34,723 bases of DNA from Alphaproteobacteria bacterium (lineage in GTDB: Bacteria > Pseudomonadota > Alphaproteobacteria > UBA2966). Under the pieces are notes generated by a model, which ran no database searches, was not told the DNA's origin, and saw only the letters and a list, made by a program, of their open reading frames with translations. A program made the translations under genes and the position numbers. Positions 243 through 22,390 of this stretch are shown one piece after another (the stretch's first letter is position 1; every line of letters starts with the position of its first letter). The stretch covers positions 1-34,723 of the forward strand of contig JASLXG010000225.1 of assembly GCA_030740435.1 (NCBI GenBank), given 5' to 3'.

Positions 243-839
243 TCAGCCTGCGTGCAGGCTGATGCGCAGGTATTTTACGAATTTGCGGGCGATGCGGCGG
301 GGCGTCTCGGCGCCCGGGCGGTACCAGGTGAAGGACCAGTTCATGGCTCCCAGCAGCATCAGCCTGAGACTGTGCAGATCGACGCCGCGGGGCAGTTTCA
401 GGTCCTCGAGCAAACGGATGAAGATGCTTTCGTAATCGTCGCGCAGCCGTGTCACCCGGGTGCGGATGGGGCTGGAGCCCGTTGGCATCTCCTGCATCAA
501 GGCCTGCACCACGATATCGCCCTCGAGCAGGAATTCGAGGTGTGCGATGCAGGCCGCCTCGAGCCGCTGCCAGGGATCGTCGGGTCCCTCCAAAGCCTCT
601 AGCACGGCATCCGAGATACGCCGCATGCCCTCGTCATGGACGGCCGCCAGCAGGTCCGCCTTGGAGGGAAAATGATAGTAGATCGAACCCGCCTGCATGC
701 CGGCGTCGGCGGCGATGTCGCGCATCGAGGCGGCCGCGTAGCCTTCGTAAAGAAAGCGCCGTGCCGAGGCCTCCAGCAACAGCTCCCGCCGATTGCCCCG
801 CCGCCTGCGCACCGTTGCCGATTTCTTGCCTGCCGCCAT
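243..839 (-). CDS. TetR/AcrR family transcriptional regulator
   Basis: The 198-residue product has a very basic N-terminus and a TetR helix-turn-helix at about residues 17-63, with the characteristic run G-Y-A-A-A-S-M-R-D-I-A...G-S-I-Y-Y-H-F-P-S-K-A-D-L-L. The C-terminal ligand domain is all-helical and ends in a W-Y-R-P-G stretch, as in regulators of lipid or acyl-CoA metabolism (KstR2-like); the ligand cannot be read from sequence. The ATG at 839 follows GAGGTG at good spacing. The gene is divergent from the trp leader, and the roughly 100-bp shared region (840-940) is the natural place for an operator. A short imperfect dyad (GTTA-N6-TAAC at 862-875) is the only candidate seen. Regulation of trp genes by this protein is not implied. 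Confidence 0.9.
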   Translation of the reverse strand: MAAGKKSATVRRRRGNRRELLLEASARRFLYEGYAAASMRDIAADAGMQAGSIYYHFPSKADLLAAVHDEGMRRISDAVLEALEGPDDPWQRLEAACIAHLEFLLEGDIVVQALMQEMPTGSSPIRTRVTRLRDDYESIFIRLLEDLKLPRGVDLHSLRLMLLGAMNWSFTWYRPGAETPRRIARKFVKYLRISLHAG

Positions 840-903: not shown

Positions 904-932
904 TTGACTGCGCCAGGAGAACCCGTCACTGT
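904..932 (+). promoter_or_regulatory. Putative sigma70 promoter of trpL-trpEG
   Basis: TTGACT (904-909) matches the -35 consensus at five of six positions. After exactly 17 bp comes CACTGT (927-932), a weak -10. A start 7-8 nt downstream would fall on or next to the A of the trpL ATG at 940, making the leader transcript leaderless. This is inferred from spacing only. Confidence 0.45.
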
Positions 933-939
933 CCGCGCC

Positions 940-984
940 ATGACAACCTTGAACCTCAGCCGCAATTGGTGGTGGCCCGCATAA
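940..984 (+). CDS. trpL: trp operon leader peptide TrpL (14 aa, three consecutive Trp codons)
   Basis: The peptide reads MTTLNLSRNWWWPA and ends with TAA at 982-984, directly inside the first hairpin of the attenuator. Three consecutive TGG codons near the end are the classic sensor of charged tRNA-Trp: stalling at them lets the antiterminator form and trpEG be transcribed. Length and codon position match the 14-residue leader peptides of alphaproteobacteria such as Sinorhizobium. There is no convincing Shine-Dalgarno (AGGAGA at 915-920 is too far away), which fits the predicted transcription start at the AUG itself. The function as an attenuation leader is very likely; a trans-acting role like that of the Sinorhizobium peptide is only possible. 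Confidence 0.9.
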   Translation: MTTLNLSRNWWWPA

Positions 985-1049
985 GCGGGCGGCCGGCTGA
1001 TCAGTTCAATCAAATGTCGGGGCCGCCACGGGCGTGGGCGGCCTTTTTT
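975..1049 (+). promoter_or_regulatory. trp attenuator (pause hairpin, antiterminator, terminator)
   Basis: Three alternative pairings are visible. The 1:2 hairpin is GCCCGC (975-980) with GCGGGC (985-990), its loop being the trpL stop codon. The antiterminator pairs GGCGGCC (988-994) with GGCCGCC (1021-1027). The terminator uses the same 1021 segment with the strand ending at 1043. The pairings are mutually exclusive, as attenuation requires. Confidence 0.88.
1021..1049 (+). terminator. Attenuator terminator of the trp leader
   Basis: GGCCGCCACG pairs with CGTGGGCGGCC (one bulged G) in 1021-1043, followed by six T (1044-1049). An open frame for trpEG could in principle start at 1034, but that lies inside this terminator, which supports the downstream ATG at 1106. 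Confidence 0.88.
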
Positions 1050-1105: not shown

Positions 1106-3274
1106 ATGAGCACCTGCCAGCACGACACCCGGGACCAGACGCCCAGCAGCATCGGCGTGCGTTGCGTCATCGAGGAACAACGCTATGAGGGCGCCGTCGA
1201 GCCGCTGATCGACACGCTGGACCAGCGCCGCGGCGCGCTTTTCACCTCGTCCTTCGAGTATCCCGGCCGCTACACGCGCTGGGACACAGGCTTCAAGGAT
1301 CCGCCCATAGTGGTCACGGCGCGTCAGCGCGAGATTGCCGTCGAGGCCCTCAACGAGCGCGGCCGAATCCTGCTGCCGGCCTTCCACGACGCCCTGGCAC
1401 GGCTCGAAGCGGTGCTGGAAATCGAGACCGAGGGGGACTGCATGGCGGCGCGCATAGCCGAACCCGAGCCCGGCTTCGCCGAGGAACGGCGCAGCCGCCA
1501 GCCCAGCGTGTGCAGCGCACTGCGGGCGCTGAACGCCCTCTTTGCCGCGCCCGGCGATGGCCACCTCGGGTTCTATGGCGCCTTCGGCTACGACTTGGCT
1601 TTCCAGTTCGAGCCGGTCGAGCTCAAAAGGCCGCGCGACGGCGACCAGCCCGATCTGGTGCTTTATCTCCCCGACGAGATCCTGGTCATCGACCATCGCC
1701 GCCAGAGCGCCACGCTCAGGCGCTACGAATTCACGGCCGAGGGCCGCACCACGAGGGGGCTTTCGCGCGACACCGCACCGGCTCCCTTCCGGCCGGCCAG
1801 TGGCGGCGAACGCGGTTGCGACCATGCGCCCGGCGAATACGCCGAGGTCGTGCGTCTGGCGCGCCAGGCCTTCCGCCGCGGCGATCTCTTCGAGGTCGTG
1901 CCGGGGCAGATGTTCAGCGAACCGGCGGCGGCGCCGCCGTCCGTCATCTTCCGCCGCCTGCGCCAGCGCAATCCGGCCCCCTACGGGGCGCTGATCAATC
2001 TGGGCGACGAGCACCTGGTGGCGGCCTCGCCGGAGATGTTCGTGCGTGTGCAAGGGCGCCGCGTCGAGACCTGCCCCATCTCCGGCACCGTGGCCCGGGG
2101 CAAGACCGCCATCGAGGACGCCGAGCAGATCCGCTGTTTGCTCAATTCGGAAAAGGACTTGGCCGAGCTCACCATGTGCACCGACGTCGACCGCAACGAC
2201 AAATCAAGGGTCTGCGAGCCCCATAGCATCGAAGTCATCGGCCGGCGCCAGATCGAGATGTATTCGCGGCTCATCCATACCGTCGACCACGTCGAGGGCC
2301 GTTTGCGGCCGGGCTACGACGCCCTTGACGCCTTTCTCGCCCACACCTGGGCGGTCACCGTCACCGGGGCGCCGAAGCCGGCCGCCATGCAGTTCATCGA
2401 GGATCATGAACGCTCGCCGCGCCGCTGGTACGGCGGTGCCATCGGCTCGTTCGGCGTCGATGGCGGCATGACCACCGGCCTGACGCTGCGCACCGTGCGC
2501 CTCAAGGACGGCATTGCCGAGGTGCGGGCCGGAGCGACCCTGCTTTACGATTCCGATCCCCAGGCCGAGGACCGCGAATGCCTGCTCAAGGCCTCGGCGC
2601 TTTTGGACGCCATCCGCCGCCCCGACCGGCCGCTCGTGACCAGCCCGCGGCCCCGCCCGGGCGCCGGCCGCCGGGTGCTGATGGTCGACCATCAGGACAG
2701 CTTCGTGCATACGCTGGGTGGCTATTTCCGGGCCGGCGGCGCCGACGTCGTGACGCTGCGTTCGGGTTTCACGGCCGAGCGCCTGCGGGAGATTGCCCCC
2801 GACCTGGTGGTGCTGTCGCCGGGTCCCGGCCGGCCCGCCGACTTCGCCATCACCGCGACCATCGAGATGGCGCTGGCCGAGGCCTTGCCGATCTTCGGCG
2901 TCTGCCTCGGCCTGCAGGGCATCGGCGAATATTTCGGCGCCCGGCTTGGGCTGTTGCCCGAACCGGTGCACGGCAAGCCCTCGTCGGTGCGGCTTCTGGG
3001 CGGTCGCCTGTTCGCCGGCCTGCCGCGCCACTTCACGGCCGGGCGCTACCACTCGCTGCACGTGCTGCGCGACGGCCTGCCGCCCGATCTCGTGGTCACG
3101 GCCGAGACCCCGGCCGGTATCGTCATGGCGCTGGAGCACCGCAGCCTGCCTGTGGCCGGCGTCCAATTCCACCCCGAATCGATCATGAGCCTGGAGAGCG
3201 ACCTGGGCCGCCGTCTGATCGACGACGTGGTCGAAAACCTGCGACCGGCGGCGGCGGTCGATGCCGTGGCCTGA
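1106..3274 (+). CDS. trpEG: Anthranilate synthase, fused TrpE-TrpG
   Basis: This 722-residue enzyme converts chorismate and glutamine to anthranilate, the first committed step of tryptophan synthesis. The N-terminal two thirds is the chorismate-binding TrpE part (core about residues 230-510, with conserved P-I-S-G-T-V-A-R-G, D-V-D-R-N-D-K and a G-A-T-L-L-Y-D-S-D-P stretch). A linker near 515-525 leads to a class I glutamine amidotransferase. That domain has nucleophile Cys600 in G-V-C-L-G-L-Q and the His689/Glu691 pair in Q-F-H-P-E-S. The fusion is typical of rhizobia, Azospirillum and relatives. The ATG at 1106 follows GGAGTGGAG. Expression is controlled by the attenuator just upstream. Nothing in the active sites looks damaged. 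Confidence 0.97.
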   Translation: MSTCQHDTRDQTPSSIGVRCVIEEQRYEGAVEPLIDTLDQRRGALFTSSFEYPGRYTRWDTGFKDPPIVVTARQREIAVEALNERGRILLPAFHDALARLEAVLEIETEGDCMAARIAEPEPGFAEERRSRQPSVCSALRALNALFAAPGDGHLGFYGAFGYDLAFQFEPVELKRPRDGDQPDLVLYLPDEILVIDHRRQSATLRRYEFTAEGRTTRGLSRDTAPAPFRPASGGERGCDHAPGEYAEVVRLARQAFRRGDLFEVVPGQMFSEPAAAPPSVIFRRLRQRNPAPYGALINLGDEHLVAASPEMFVRVQGRRVETCPISGTVARGKTAIEDAEQIRCLLNSEKDLAELTMCTDVDRNDKSRVCEPHSIEVIGRRQIEMYSRLIHTVDHVEGRLRPGYDALDAFLAHTWAVTVTGAPKPAAMQFIEDHERSPRRWYGGAIGSFGVDGGMTTGLTLRTVRLKDGIAEVRAGATLLYDSDPQAEDRECLLKASALLDAIRRPDRPLVTSPRPRPGAGRRVLMVDHQDSFVHTLGGYFRAGGADVVTLRSGFTAERLREIAPDLVVLSPGPGRPADFAITATIEMALAEALPIFGVCLGLQGIGEYFGARLGLLPEPVHGKPSSVRLLGGRLFAGLPRHFTAGRYHSLHVLRDGLPPDLVVTAETPAGIVMALEHRSLPVAGVQFHPESIMSLESDLGRRLIDDVVENLRPAAAVDAVA

Positions 3275-3414: not shown

Positions 3415-3438
3415 GTGGGGTCGGGCCAAACTGGAGTA

Positions 3439-3544
3439 AGAGTCGGTTTTCCCGAATAAACCGACTCTAAAACCTACTCCGACCCCAGTTTTCACAAAAC
3501 CCACTCCGACCCCAGTCCTAAAAACCCACTCCGACCCCAGTTTT
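3439..3544. repeat. REP-like palindrome plus three direct repeats
   Basis: A perfect 11-bp inverted repeat (AGAGTCGGTTT at 3439-3449 and its complement at 3458-3468, loop 8 nt) is followed by three copies of ACTCCGACCCCAGT (within 3474-3492, 3501-3518 and 3526-3544), separated by short A/T-rich linkers. This CTGGGGTCGGAGT-type motif with a palindrome resembles the intergenic REP elements mobilised by RAYT (TnpA_REP) proteins in many proteobacteria. It lies exactly between the gene and its duplicated tail. The spacing is too short and irregular for CRISPR. Confidence 0.7.
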
Positions 3545-8486: not shown

Positions 8487-9568
8487 GCCGCGGCCACGCG
8501 GGGCCGCATCCAACCCCAGGCGGCGGCGATCAGCACCAAGCCCAGCGCCGCGCCCAGGCCGAGGCGCTGGTTGGCCAGGCTGGCCGAGGCCGCCTCCAGA
8601 CGGCTCGCCCGGGCCTGTGCTTGGGCCAGGGCCGCCTTGTGCTCCTTGGCCTGGCGCTGCGCCGCAGCCAGAGCCGTCTCGGCGGCGTCCGCCCGAGCCC
8701 GGGCTTTTCCCAGCTCGGCGACCAGGGTCTGGCGTTTGCTGGCGGCCTGGGACAGTTTGCCGCCCAGTGCCTTCAGTTCCAGGCGGCTTTTGTCGTAGGC
8801 GCTTTGCAGGCCGGCGATGATGCCCTCGCGGCTGCCGAGCTCGGTGCGCAGCGTCTCCAGGGCCGAGGCTTTTTCGAGCAACTGGTCATGGACGTCGCCG
8901 GCCACGGCGTCGAGCTTTTCAATCTGCCGGCGCAGCGAGGCGATCATGCCATCCTTCTGCTCCAGTTCACCGGCGCTTTGGGCTTCGGCAGCGGTTTTGG
9001 CCTGCTCCCGGGTGGCCACTTGTCGGTGCAGATCGTCGGTCTCGGCGCGTTCTCCGGCCAGGCTTTTCCGCAAGCCCGCGATGACGCCGTCGCGCCCCAA
9101 AAGCGCCGCCTGAAGTCCGGTCAGCAGCCCGTCTTTCTCTCCCAGTTTCGACTTCAGCCCCGCCAGCAAACCGTCTTTTGCTGACAACTGGCTTTGCAAG
9201 CCGGCCAGCAGGCCGTCCTTTCGGCTCAGCGCCGCCTGCAAATCCGAGAGCAAGCCGCCGCGCCGGTTGAGCTGGGCCTCGAGGCTGTCGATAAGGCCGG
9301 ATTGCCGGCCGACGGTCTTTTTGAGACCGCCGATGGTGCCCTTACGAGAGGTCAGGTCGTTCTCGAGCCCCGAAATACGACCGTCCTTTTGCCTCAGTTG
9401 ATCGAGCAGGGCCTGGATCTGCCTGCCGAGTTGGTCCTCCTGCCGGCTGCCCTGCTGGCCGCCCTGCAGCAATTGCTGCAGCAGTTTGGACTGGGCCTGG
9501 GCCGGCCCGCTGGCCAGCGCCAGGCTTGCCAAAACCAGGGCCGCAACGAAACCCTTTGCCTGCATCAT
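8483..9568 (-). CDS. Exported coiled-coil protein with eight 14-residue repeats and C-terminal membrane anchor
   Basis: Starting at the ATG-ATG at 9568 (GGGAG eight bases upstream) the product is 361 residues. Residues 1-26 form a signal peptide ending in A-Q-A. Residues 61-172 are eight back-to-back 14-residue units with consensus K-D-G-L-L-A-G-L-Q-S-x-L-S-x, and degenerate units continue to about 250. The rest, to about 330, is Ala/Lys/Glu-rich heptad sequence. A hydrophobic segment L-G-L-G-A-A-L-G-L-V-L-I-A-A-A-W near 337-353 is followed by a basic tail, suggesting a periplasmic rod anchored at the C-terminus in the inner membrane. I do not recognise a named family. A longer reading frame upstream to 9652 would place the signal peptide internally and is less likely. 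Confidence 0.75.
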   Translation of the reverse strand: MMQAKGFVAALVLASLALASGPAQAQSKLLQQLLQGGQQGSRQEDQLGRQIQALLDQLRQKDGRISGLENDLTSRKGTIGGLKKTVGRQSGLIDSLEAQLNRRGGLLSDLQAALSRKDGLLAGLQSQLSAKDGLLAGLKSKLGEKDGLLTGLQAALLGRDGVIAGLRKSLAGERAETDDLHRQVATREQAKTAAEAQSAGELEQKDGMIASLRRQIEKLDAVAGDVHDQLLEKASALETLRTELGSREGIIAGLQSAYDKSRLELKALGGKLSQAASKRQTLVAELGKARARADAAETALAAAQRQAKEHKAALAQAQARASRLEAASASLANQRLGLGAALGLVLIAAAWGWMRPRVAAA

Positions 9569-9940
9569 GGCCGCTTCTCCCGTTGTGCACCTTGGCAGCC
9601 GCAATGGTATCACCGGCTGAGAAATCCGATCCAGAGCAAGGCCATGGAACAACGGGATTCCAACAACCGGGCTATTTGCGGCGCTAAGTTGCGGGGCTCT
9701 CGAGGCAGGCCAGGGAAGCTTTCGATGGGCCCTGGATTGATCTTACTGCGAGGCGATTTTCTTTTTGAAATCAATTTCTTAGCTAATTGGTGGCAGTGTC
9801 CCGGGGGGACAAGGCTTTCAACCGGCCTGTGGAGCCGCTATCATCTATTTTGCGTGCCGCTGCAGGCGTTGCGCAAGCTGCCGGTCTGCTGCCCCGAGGC
9901 GAGCCCTGGCTCGACTGCGGCGGCCCCTCAGGAAGTCGCG
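9569..9940. other. 372-bp intergenic region between divergent coiled-coil and kinase genes
   Basis: No gene or clear RNA structure is seen. An A/T-rich island at about 9756-9790 contrasts with the GC-rich surroundings and is the likely promoter zone for the kinase gene; TTGAAA at 9765 lacks a well-placed -10. Long open frames through it are extensions of the kinase frame without a start signal. Confidence 0.5.
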
Positions 9941-11266
9941 ATGGCCGATACTTCAGAGATGGACGATGCCACGATTGTCGACAGCGGTCCGGCCGTCGTC
10001 CATCGTAGCTCCGATGAGGAGATTCCCGACAAGCTGGGACGGCACAACATCCTCGAGATCGTCGGCACCGGCGCCATGGGGGTGGTTTACCGCGGCTTCG
10101 ACGAAATCATCGAGCGTTTCGTCGCCATCAAGGTGATCCGCCACGACATCGTCGCCAAGCTCGGCGCCCACGACACCCTGGAGCGCTTCAAGACCGAGGC
10201 CAAGGCGGTGGGCCGGCTGTCGCATCCCAACATCGCCACCATCTTCGAATACGGCAGCGAGGAGGGGCAGGACTTCATCGTCATGGAGTTCGTCGACGGC
10301 GATTCCCTGGCCGCCGAAGTGGGCAACACCACGCGCCCCCTGGCCAGCAAGATCCGCATCATTTCGCAGACCCTGGACGCCCTGGCCCACGCCCACAACA
10401 TCGGTGTCGTGCATCGCGACATCAAGCCGGCCAACATCCTGCTTTCAGCGCTGGGCGACGTGAAGCTGACGGATTTCGGCATCTCGCTGATCGAAAGCGC
10501 CGATAGCGAGGAGCCCGAGGCGGTGCTGGGTACGCCGCGCTACATGTCGCCCGAACAGATCAACGGCAAGGCCGTCGATCACCGCTCCGACATCTTTTCC
10601 CTGGGCAGCGTGTTCTACGAACTGCTGACCGGCAACAAGGCGTTCAGCGGCTCGACGACACAGGAAATCATCCAGAACGTGCTGCACAGCGAGCCGCCGC
10701 CACCCCATTCGGTCGACCACACCCTGCCCCAGGAACTCGACGCCATCATCGCCAAATCCCTGGCCCGGGATCCCGCCGAACGCTACCAGAGCGCCGCCCA
10801 CTTGCAGCAGGCAGTGGGCGAGTTTCTCGATACGCCGACCACCTCGCACAAGGCCAGTACGGTGCTGGAACGGCGGCTCTACAAGGATGGTGAGGTCATC
10901 TTCGAGGAAGGCAGCGAAGGCCGCGAGGCCTATATCGTCGACGAGGGCACCGTCGAGATCGCCAAGGAACAGGACGGCGAGCGCGTGGTGCTGGGTACCA
11001 TCGGCAAGCAAAACCTGTTCGGCGAGATGGCGGTCATCGAGCACACCACCCGGATGGCTGCCGCCGTGGCGCGGGGCGACACCACCGTGATGGTGGTGCG
11101 GGATCACGATTTTCTCGATCGTTACGAATATTCCGACCCGGTCATCCGCTCCATGCTGAGCTCGCTGGTGCGCAACCTGCGCACGGCCAGCGACCAGCTC
11201 GCCTACGAACGCGCCAAACCCGGCAAAACCGCCCCGGTCAACGACGGGGACCCCGAAGAAACCTAA
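9941..11266 (+). CDS. Hanks-type Ser/Thr protein kinase fused to a cyclic-nucleotide-binding domain
   Basis: The 441-residue protein, started at the ATG after AGGA (9930-9933), has a complete kinase domain at about residues 30-290. It includes the G-loop G-T-G-A-M-G-V-V-Y-R-G, Lys64 in V-A-I-K, H-R-D-I-K-P-A-N with Asp160, D-F-G with Asp178, and M-S-P-E-Q. It is followed at about 305-425 by a cNMP-binding fold with the phosphate cassette F-G-E-M-A-V-I-E-H-T-T-R-M-A-A-A-V, including its Glu and Arg. No membrane segment is present, unlike most bacterial Hanks kinases, so it is probably cytoplasmic and could be gated by cAMP or a related ligand. The C-terminal domain could also bind another small molecule. 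Its stop overlaps the convergent crotonase stop. Confidence 0.92.
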   Translation: MADTSEMDDATIVDSGPAVVHRSSDEEIPDKLGRHNILEIVGTGAMGVVYRGFDEIIERFVAIKVIRHDIVAKLGAHDTLERFKTEAKAVGRLSHPNIATIFEYGSEEGQDFIVMEFVDGDSLAAEVGNTTRPLASKIRIISQTLDALAHAHNIGVVHRDIKPANILLSALGDVKLTDFGISLIESADSEEPEAVLGTPRYMSPEQINGKAVDHRSDIFSLGSVFYELLTGNKAFSGSTTQEIIQNVLHSEPPPPHSVDHTLPQELDAIIAKSLARDPAERYQSAAHLQQAVGEFLDTPTTSHKASTVLERRLYKDGEVIFEEGSEGREAYIVDEGTVEIAKEQDGERVVLGTIGKQNLFGEMAVIEHTTRMAAAVARGDTTVMVVRDHDFLDRYEYSDPVIRSMLSSLVRNLRTASDQLAYERAKPGKTAPVNDGDPEET

Positions 11267-21924: not shown

Positions 21925-22035
21925 GGGCATCCTCGAAAAGGCAAACCGGCGGCAACGGCGGGGCGCAAAGTTTCGGGCCCTGGGCGTCAGGCACGCCTTC
22001 GCAAGACGCCGCCAGGGTGGCCGGACTGCCGAAAG
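21925..22035 (+). promoter_or_regulatory. Cyclic-di-GMP class I (GEMM-I) riboswitch candidate
   Basis: The segment shows the core of the class I aptamer in order. GGCAAACC (21940-21947) leads to a short helix closed by a GCAA tetraloop (21952-21955), then GGGGCGCAAAG (21960-21970) and CGGGCCC. Next comes a long imperfect stem, CCCTGG-GCGTC (21978-21988) with GACGC-CG-CCAGGG (22005-22017), and finally GGTGGCCGGACTGCCGA. In the reference Vc2 aptamer the matching blocks are GGCAAACC, a GAAA tetraloop, GGGACGCAAAGCC and AGGUAGCGGGGUUACCGA. The 3' end of the aptamer is followed at once by AGGAG and the GTG start of the small gene at 22046. No T-run follows, so control of translation is the simplest model. 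A covariance-model search would settle it. Confidence 0.8.
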
Positions 22036-22045
22036 GAGAAAGAGC

Positions 22046-22390
22046 GTGTTGTTTCGTTTCCCTCTCATCGCGGCCATCGCGGCCGCCTTTTTCATGTTCG
22101 CGGCGGCCGTCCAGGCGCGCGCCGACGTCGAGACCCCGGTCGTGCTGCAGGCCGTGACCCGGTGAGAAATGCGGGTTAAGTTCAATCTGCTGGCCGACCG
22201 CTGGCGCGTCAGCCGCCGGCTGGGCAAGCGCCAGAAGATCTTCAGCGTCGGCGTCAAGAACTACAATCTGCGCGACCGTGACGGCCTGGCGGAAAAGCGT
22301 ACGCCCTACCTCTTTCGCGGCAACGGCGGGCCGAAATGCCGGGTCTATACGCTGGCCGGCAACAGCGACCTGGCGAAGTTGCTGAACTGA
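22046..22390 (+). pseudogene. Small exported basic protein behind the riboswitch, frame interrupted by TGA at codon 40
   Basis: A GTG with AGGAG seven bases upstream opens a frame coding for a signal peptide (cut after Q-A-R-A, about residue 26) and D-V-E-T-P-V-V-L-Q-A-V-T-R. It then meets TGA (22163-22165). The same frame continues with 73 codons, strongly basic at first (R-V-S-R-R-L-G-K-R-Q-K), to TGA at 22388-22390. The second part alone has an ATG at 22169 but no properly spaced ribosome-binding site. A one-base nonsense change (for example GGA to TGA) in a gene of about 114 codons explains it best; reinitiation or readthrough is possible. There is no Cys motif or clear stem-loop to argue for selenocysteine. 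I do not recognise the family. Confidence 0.55.

Follow-up and report, generated by a model that had tools for sequence, protein, structure and literature searches.

In the trp attenuator of E. coli, a ribosome that stalls at Trp codons decides between an antiterminator and a terminator, and the same principle probably applies to the locus described here; in E. coli, however, a 5' leader carrying a Shine-Dalgarno sequence precedes trpL, which heads a multi-gene trp operon. In trans-action by the leader peptide peTrpL, the stability of the mRNA of a TetR repressor is altered, and an antisense RNA and an antimicrobial compound take part as well. Leaderless trp leaders are in print for two genera. 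The attenuator RNA of Sinorhizobium meliloti, rnTrpL, begins at the trpL ATG according to the accessible parts of PMC7298713 and PMC10117765, and RcsR1 is reported in the accessible part of PMC7143759 to be transcribed from the same position. For Streptomyces lividans, the available portion of PMC8079986 reports a leaderless leader gene with three Trp codons (WWW), trpL1, before trpE. Given these reports for Sinorhizobium and Streptomyces, the leaderless trp attenuator is of a known kind, and the present locus is a well-formed, conserved further case. A literature search, with most subscription journals outside its scope, found no survey of leaderless trpL across alphaproteobacteria.

The window analysed here is one whole contig of 34,723 nucleotides from a draft genome of 4.5 Mb (98.6% complete). 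A preliminary description of this DNA had claimed a complete trp attenuator at 904-1049. All of its parts are present, and their layout is kept in a sister species of the same genus (G001). The features are as follows.

243-839, minus strand: divergent gene for a TetR-family regulator (TetR_N and TetR_C_24 domains), a neighbour that is probably not part of the attenuator
904-909, plus strand: putative -35 element of the trpL promoter, TTGACT
927-932, plus strand: putative -10 element of the trpL promoter, CACTGT, a weak match 7 nt 5' of the trpL ATG
940, plus strand: predicted transcription start, the A of the trpL ATG, placed by geometry
940-984, plus strand: trpL, 14-residue leader peptide MTTLNLSRNWWWPA, recognised from the sequence and by comparison with relatives
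967-975, plus strand: three consecutive Trp codons, the putative ribosome stall site
942-1018, plus strand: predicted hairpin of the unstalled RNA (pairs 949-954/1004-1009, 956-961/995-1000 and 975-980/985-990)
986-1030, plus strand: antiterminator (pairs 988-994/1021-1027, 986-987/1029-1030 and 997-1000/1017-1020), predicted with 940 to about 979-988 masked
1019-1049, plus strand: intrinsic terminator with its stem at 1019-1045 (-18.2 kcal/mol) and T6 at 1044-1049, from the fold and the sequence
1106-3274, plus strand: trpE(G), the regulated gene, encoding a fused anthranilate synthase (TIGR01815, TrpE-clade3, 1048.3 bits against a cut-off of 739.15)

The 14-residue trpL with three Trp codons was thus correctly recognised at the outset, and this short ORF with tandem Trp codons lies upstream of a gene for Trp biosynthesis. 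The T6 terminator is located 56 bp 5' of trpE(G), whose ATG at 1106 is preceded by GGAGTGGAG. From the sequence, we consider it very probable that the locus belongs to the alphaproteobacterial trpLE(G) attenuators, in which the ribosome controls transcription, and that its trpL is leaderless. The genome of the window has no second match to the TrpE domain, and its other three matches cover the glutamine-amidotransferase part only. A search of the same 98.6% complete draft with trpE(G) as the query gave no second chorismate-binding (PabB-like) protein at E 0.001; several members of the class show more than one chorismate-binding protein. Downstream of trpE(G), a long imperfect inverted repeat (GGAGTAAGAGTCGGTTTT ... 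AAACCGACTCTAAAACCTACTCC) was seen by eye at 3433-3480.

The locus is like S. meliloti trpLE(G) in its 14-residue WWW leader, its terminator and the fused trpE(G) downstream; the RNA start at the trpL AUG was measured in S. meliloti and is predicted in the window. The covariance model of RcsR1 (Rfam RF02552) matches 956-1048 with 29.8 bits (281 bases searched, E 2e-4), below the gathering score of 60 bits, at a position 5' of the fused trpE(G) and with the start predicted at the trpL AUG. Trp leaders were matched by this model in six of nine given loci, all below 60 bits (56.2 in Rhizobium, 36.1 in Brucella), and no match up to E 0.5 was obtained in the other three; one leader region among the nine is matched on the opposite strand as well. 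Judged by its sequence, the window element is distantly related to RcsR1 (= rnTrpL), the attenuator RNA of Sinorhizobium. It departs from S. meliloti in its sub-threshold Rfam score, in the N-terminal residues of the peptide (the S. meliloti peptide is given in the accessible part of PMC7298713) and in its TrpEG, which branches deeply in the tree and falls outside the rhizobial group. One leader from the same class, MSIAVRPARFWWRTS, nearly equals the Bradyrhizobium peptide printed in that part of PMC7298713. With the placement of same-class genomes beside Azospirillum and Skermanella in the TrpEG tree, this suggests that the window comes from an alphaproteobacterium. With S. lividans trpL1, the locus shares the WWW leader, the leaderless start (predicted in the window) and a monocistronic trpE, but the trpL1 peptide has 18 residues and its host is an actinobacterium (PMC8079986, available portion).

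A strict consensus scan of 780-1120 found neither a sigma-70 promoter, the -10 element CACTGT being weak, nor an intrinsic terminator, whose stem carries a bulge. A second promoter scan picked an upstream pair in the window, CTCACC-N16-TATAAC, at 8.5 points; by the rule of the same scan, worked by hand, TTGACT 904-909 and CACTGT 927-932 with their 17-nt spacer also reach 8.5 points. Since the strict scan was empty and the upstream pair scores equally, the predicted start at 940 rests mainly on the comparison with relatives.

Fused trpE(G) loci were sampled from the best 80 of 587 relatives from named genomes, together with genomes of the same class, of which 41 of 385 have the TrpEG family at E 1e-150 or better and 30 supplied loci, and genomes of the family and order. 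The leader recurs widely: an ATG-start leader with adjacent Trp codons (WW) occurs in 70 of 116 rows (112 distinct loci) and was not found under this rule in 46 rows, equal to 42 distinct loci. GTG-start WW leaders (e.g. in L040) were excluded from the leader counts. The leader, promoter, terminator and fold counts omit the duplicates L120 and L130 (of L001 and L009), and the duplicates L122, L134, L135 and L136 (of L007, L006, L008 and L010) stay within the 116 rows. In L011, L117 and L140, a misplaced frame put the upstream stretch outside the scripted leader scan, and L011 was read by eye. Upstream of trpE(G) in L006 and L010, short frames with a single Trp codon were seen by eye that may be diverged leaders, such as MKAYPPKSKTFLWRSR in L010, which has a hairpin and a T-rich tail.

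The distance between the -35 element and the leader ATG is strongly conserved. In 60 of the 70 loci, TTG[AC] begins 35-38 nt 5' of a leader ATG that is in frame, compared with 5.7 ± 2.0 (maximum 11) in 200 shuffles, and the commonest distance is 36 nt, as in the window. The same geometry was found in 19 of 22 representatives after clustering at 70% TrpEG identity and in 33 of the 38 loci having a single in-frame ATG; it occurs at 7 of 70 trpE(G) starts and, among the other ATGs nearby, at 21 of 747. Shine-Dalgarno matches of 4 nt or more precede 13 of the 70 leader ATGs, compared with 20 of 70 in shuffled sequences, and 56 of 70 trpE(G) starts, the latter taken as the best of several candidate starts. 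In 16 of 19 representatives, the leader ATG follows a C or a T, as would fit transcription beginning at the A. In addition, a consensus promoter scan of the 70 loci, in which the in-frame ATG with the gap nearest 7 was taken among several, placed 37 at a gap of 4-9 nt (shuffles, 4.8 ± 2.2, with 11 as the maximum of 100). The sister species has the leader MLTTNPSRFWWWPA in the same layout as the window; the two share TTGAC, CACTGTCCGCGCC-ATG and almost the entire stretch that begins with the Trp codons and ends with the terminator, and they diverge in the promoter spacer and the N-terminal trpL codons.

Because 60 of 70 loci keep this geometry and the leader ATGs show no enrichment of Shine-Dalgarno matches, the leaderless start appears to be a conserved design and not a local oddity. 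The sequence comparison strongly supports such a design across these trpE(G) loci, and the window fits it in its promoter distance and its absence of a Shine-Dalgarno sequence. The suggestion that trpL might be leaderless is supported by comparative geometry, from which we infer both the start site and leaderless translation. The same two observations bear against a conventional leadered attenuator. In that alternative, transcription would start about 55-60 nt upstream, from CTCACC-N16-TATAAC (3' end at 875), and translation of the leadered mRNA would yield the trpL peptide or a longer one that starts in frame at the GTG at 880. This pair is the one that the window promoter scan chose, and in the window as in the sister species, no stop codon interrupts the frame that runs from the GTG 60 nt upstream to the end of trpL; the TATAAC block, however, may belong to the divergent TetR promoter. 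As a joint claim, the leadered arrangement seems very improbable. The survey indicates that, among fused trpE(G) loci that have a tandem-Trp leader, leaderless trpL is the norm and not a quirk of one species, and it supplies natural leaderless small mRNAs whose start would be fixed by the -35-to-ATG distance.

The attenuator RNA folds more stably than expected by chance. The RNA of 940-1055 has a fold energy of -54.4 kcal/mol, compared with -41.1 ± 3.7 for dinucleotide shuffles (z -3.6), and 1 of 200 such shuffles matches it. In the unstalled hairpin, the UAA stop of trpL lies within the AUAA loop at 981-984. Masking the RNA to +39, +42, +45 or +48 (979-988) made the antiterminator the best predicted fold in the window; without a mask, with masks up to +36, or with masks of +51 and more (991 and beyond), the terminator was predicted. 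If the ribosome shields 13 nt counted from the start of the A-site codon, stalling with one of the Trp codons in that site would mask the RNA up to about +40, +43 or +46; a footprint-sized mask at the trpL stop codon restores the predicted terminator. In the sister species, masks to +42 and +45 switch the best fold, and those to +39 or +48 do not. The antiterminator and T6 terminator claimed earlier therefore behave as exclusive alternatives in silico, with a stall at the Trp codons selecting the antiterminator.

The switch was also assessed across relatives. A terminator-like site lies at most 170 nt from the leader stop in 59 of 70 loci (17-26 in five shuffles), and these 59 loci with a recognised terminator were used for the fold tests. 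With the RNA cut before the 3' arm, the 5' terminator arm of the window was sequestered to 0.05 when free, 0.87 when stalled and 0.32 at the stop; the means of the same test over the 59 loci were 0.38, 0.74 and 0.33, respectively. Sequestration in the stalled state was at least 0.5 in 59 of 59 loci, compared with 34-47 in 20 shuffles, and the difference between stall and stop was 0.41, compared with 0.06-0.16 in shuffles, which in this co-transcriptional test preserve base content but not dinucleotides. In full-length equilibrium folds with a stalled ribosome, the terminator was still favoured in most of the 59 loci; 5 of 59 switched, the window among them by the rule of that test, and 10 shuffles gave 0-4. 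Since equilibrium folds switch in just 5 of 59 loci, the switch model needs folding to follow transcription.

In the mechanism that we propose, RNA polymerase would start at the trpL AUG, or about one nucleotide off, and a ribosome would load on the 5' AUG without a Shine-Dalgarno sequence. When Trp-tRNA is plentiful, the ribosome would reach the stop codon at 982-984 and the antiterminator would fail to hold; we infer that the terminator at 1019-1049 then forms in the cell and releases an rnTrpL-like RNA of about 110 nt. When Trp-tRNA is short, the ribosome would stall at 967-975 and cover the RNA up to about 980-988, leaving 986-994 to pair with 1021-1030 and block the terminator. trpE(G) would then be transcribed, and translated from its own Shine-Dalgarno sequence.

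Among the family and order members searched, a fused trpE(G) is present only in the same-genus G001, and the others have a split TrpE as their best match. No tandem-Trp leader was found before the split trpE in five family genomes (G002-G006). Two W..W frames were judged by eye to be chance: that of G006 has a GTG start and no adjacent Trp codons, and that of G002 lies inside a frame open into trpE. In the TrpEG tree, the window and G001 occupy a long, deep branch, and their group, a weakly supported open fork, contains Legionella, Binatota, Myxococcota, Chloroflexota and others; same-class genomes are placed with Azospirillum and Skermanella. On this sequence evidence, a transfer of the fused trpE(G) into this genus is plausible. 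More tentatively, and in our view with the balance against it, the leaderless trpL attenuator and fused trpE(G) could form a self-contained cassette of promoter, sensor peptide, switch and enzyme, passed from one lineage or phylum to another. This reading is based on the fused gene in the genus alongside split trpE/trpG without a matching leader in five other family members, and on the WWW leaders and similar promoter-to-ATG distance of the Binatota and Myxococcota copies. If it were true, the leaderless start would free the switch from the need for a ribosome-binding site fitted to each host, so that it could function in any of them. WWW leader peptides upstream of fused trpE(G) were observed in the Binatota and Myxococcota records L035, L038, L044, L047 and L048, three of which have TATAAT 9 nt before an ATG-ATG start.

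The adjoining TetR gene had been taken as a hint of a Sinorhizobium-like trans role, and this part of the preliminary description is not supported. Of 118 rows, 114 of them with 1 kb or more of upstream sequence, those of the window (two, one a duplicate) and G001 are the only ones with such a TetR gene upstream of trpE(G). In G001, the regulator is 96% identical, occupies the same place and adjoins genes for thiolase, methylmalonyl-CoA mutase and 3-hydroxyacyl-CoA dehydrogenase. An NCBIfam scan of the protein gave no model above its cut-off, the best being of ScbR and FasR type. The domains, the G001 neighbours and the genus-only adjacency speak for a fatty-acid-type regulator that happens to adjoin trpL, and we rejected it as a conserved trans target or part of the system. 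In Sinorhizobium, smeR sits in the smeABR operon (PMC7298713, accessible part); no RND efflux pump was found among the 20 window ORFs scanned with Pfam, which include one MFS transporter 28 kb away.

By analogy with Sinorhizobium rnTrpL/peTrpL, which act on trpDC, sinI and smeR, the attenuated RNA or peptide might act in trans as well, possibly on the TetR gene. The shared architecture and the RcsR1 similarity favour this, as does a report that the peTrpL homologues of Agrobacterium and Bradyrhizobium, although unlike as peptides, also act in trans (PMC7298713, accessible part). We nevertheless regard it as unlikely: beyond the genus-only adjacency and the resemblance to a fatty-acid-type regulator, the N-terminal residues of the peptide differ between the window species and G001. 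Pairing with trpD and its flanks was also unexceptional, with 0.7% of 1302 background windows reaching the best of about 77 windows tried, by a test of base-pairing energy without accessibility that is weak either way. Finally, TetR could bind the shared 100-bp intergenic region and co-regulate trpL initiation. The divergent genes are 100 bp apart in both species and a block at about 852-873 is conserved; against this, 830-945 holds no inverted repeat of at least 8 bp that could serve as an operator, and the TetR neighbour is not conserved elsewhere, which makes such co-regulation quite improbable. For the window, ribosome-mediated attenuation with a probably leaderless trpL is the likely mechanism, and the proposed TetR link is removed.

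Two further elements were observed on the plus strand of the window. A 690-residue frame at 9194-11266 encodes a protein kinase domain followed by a cyclic-nucleotide-binding domain, and a c-di-GMP-I riboswitch aptamer at 21930-22033 (56.3 bits, compared with an Rfam gathering score of 35) lies just 5' of what may be a small open frame with its start near 22047.
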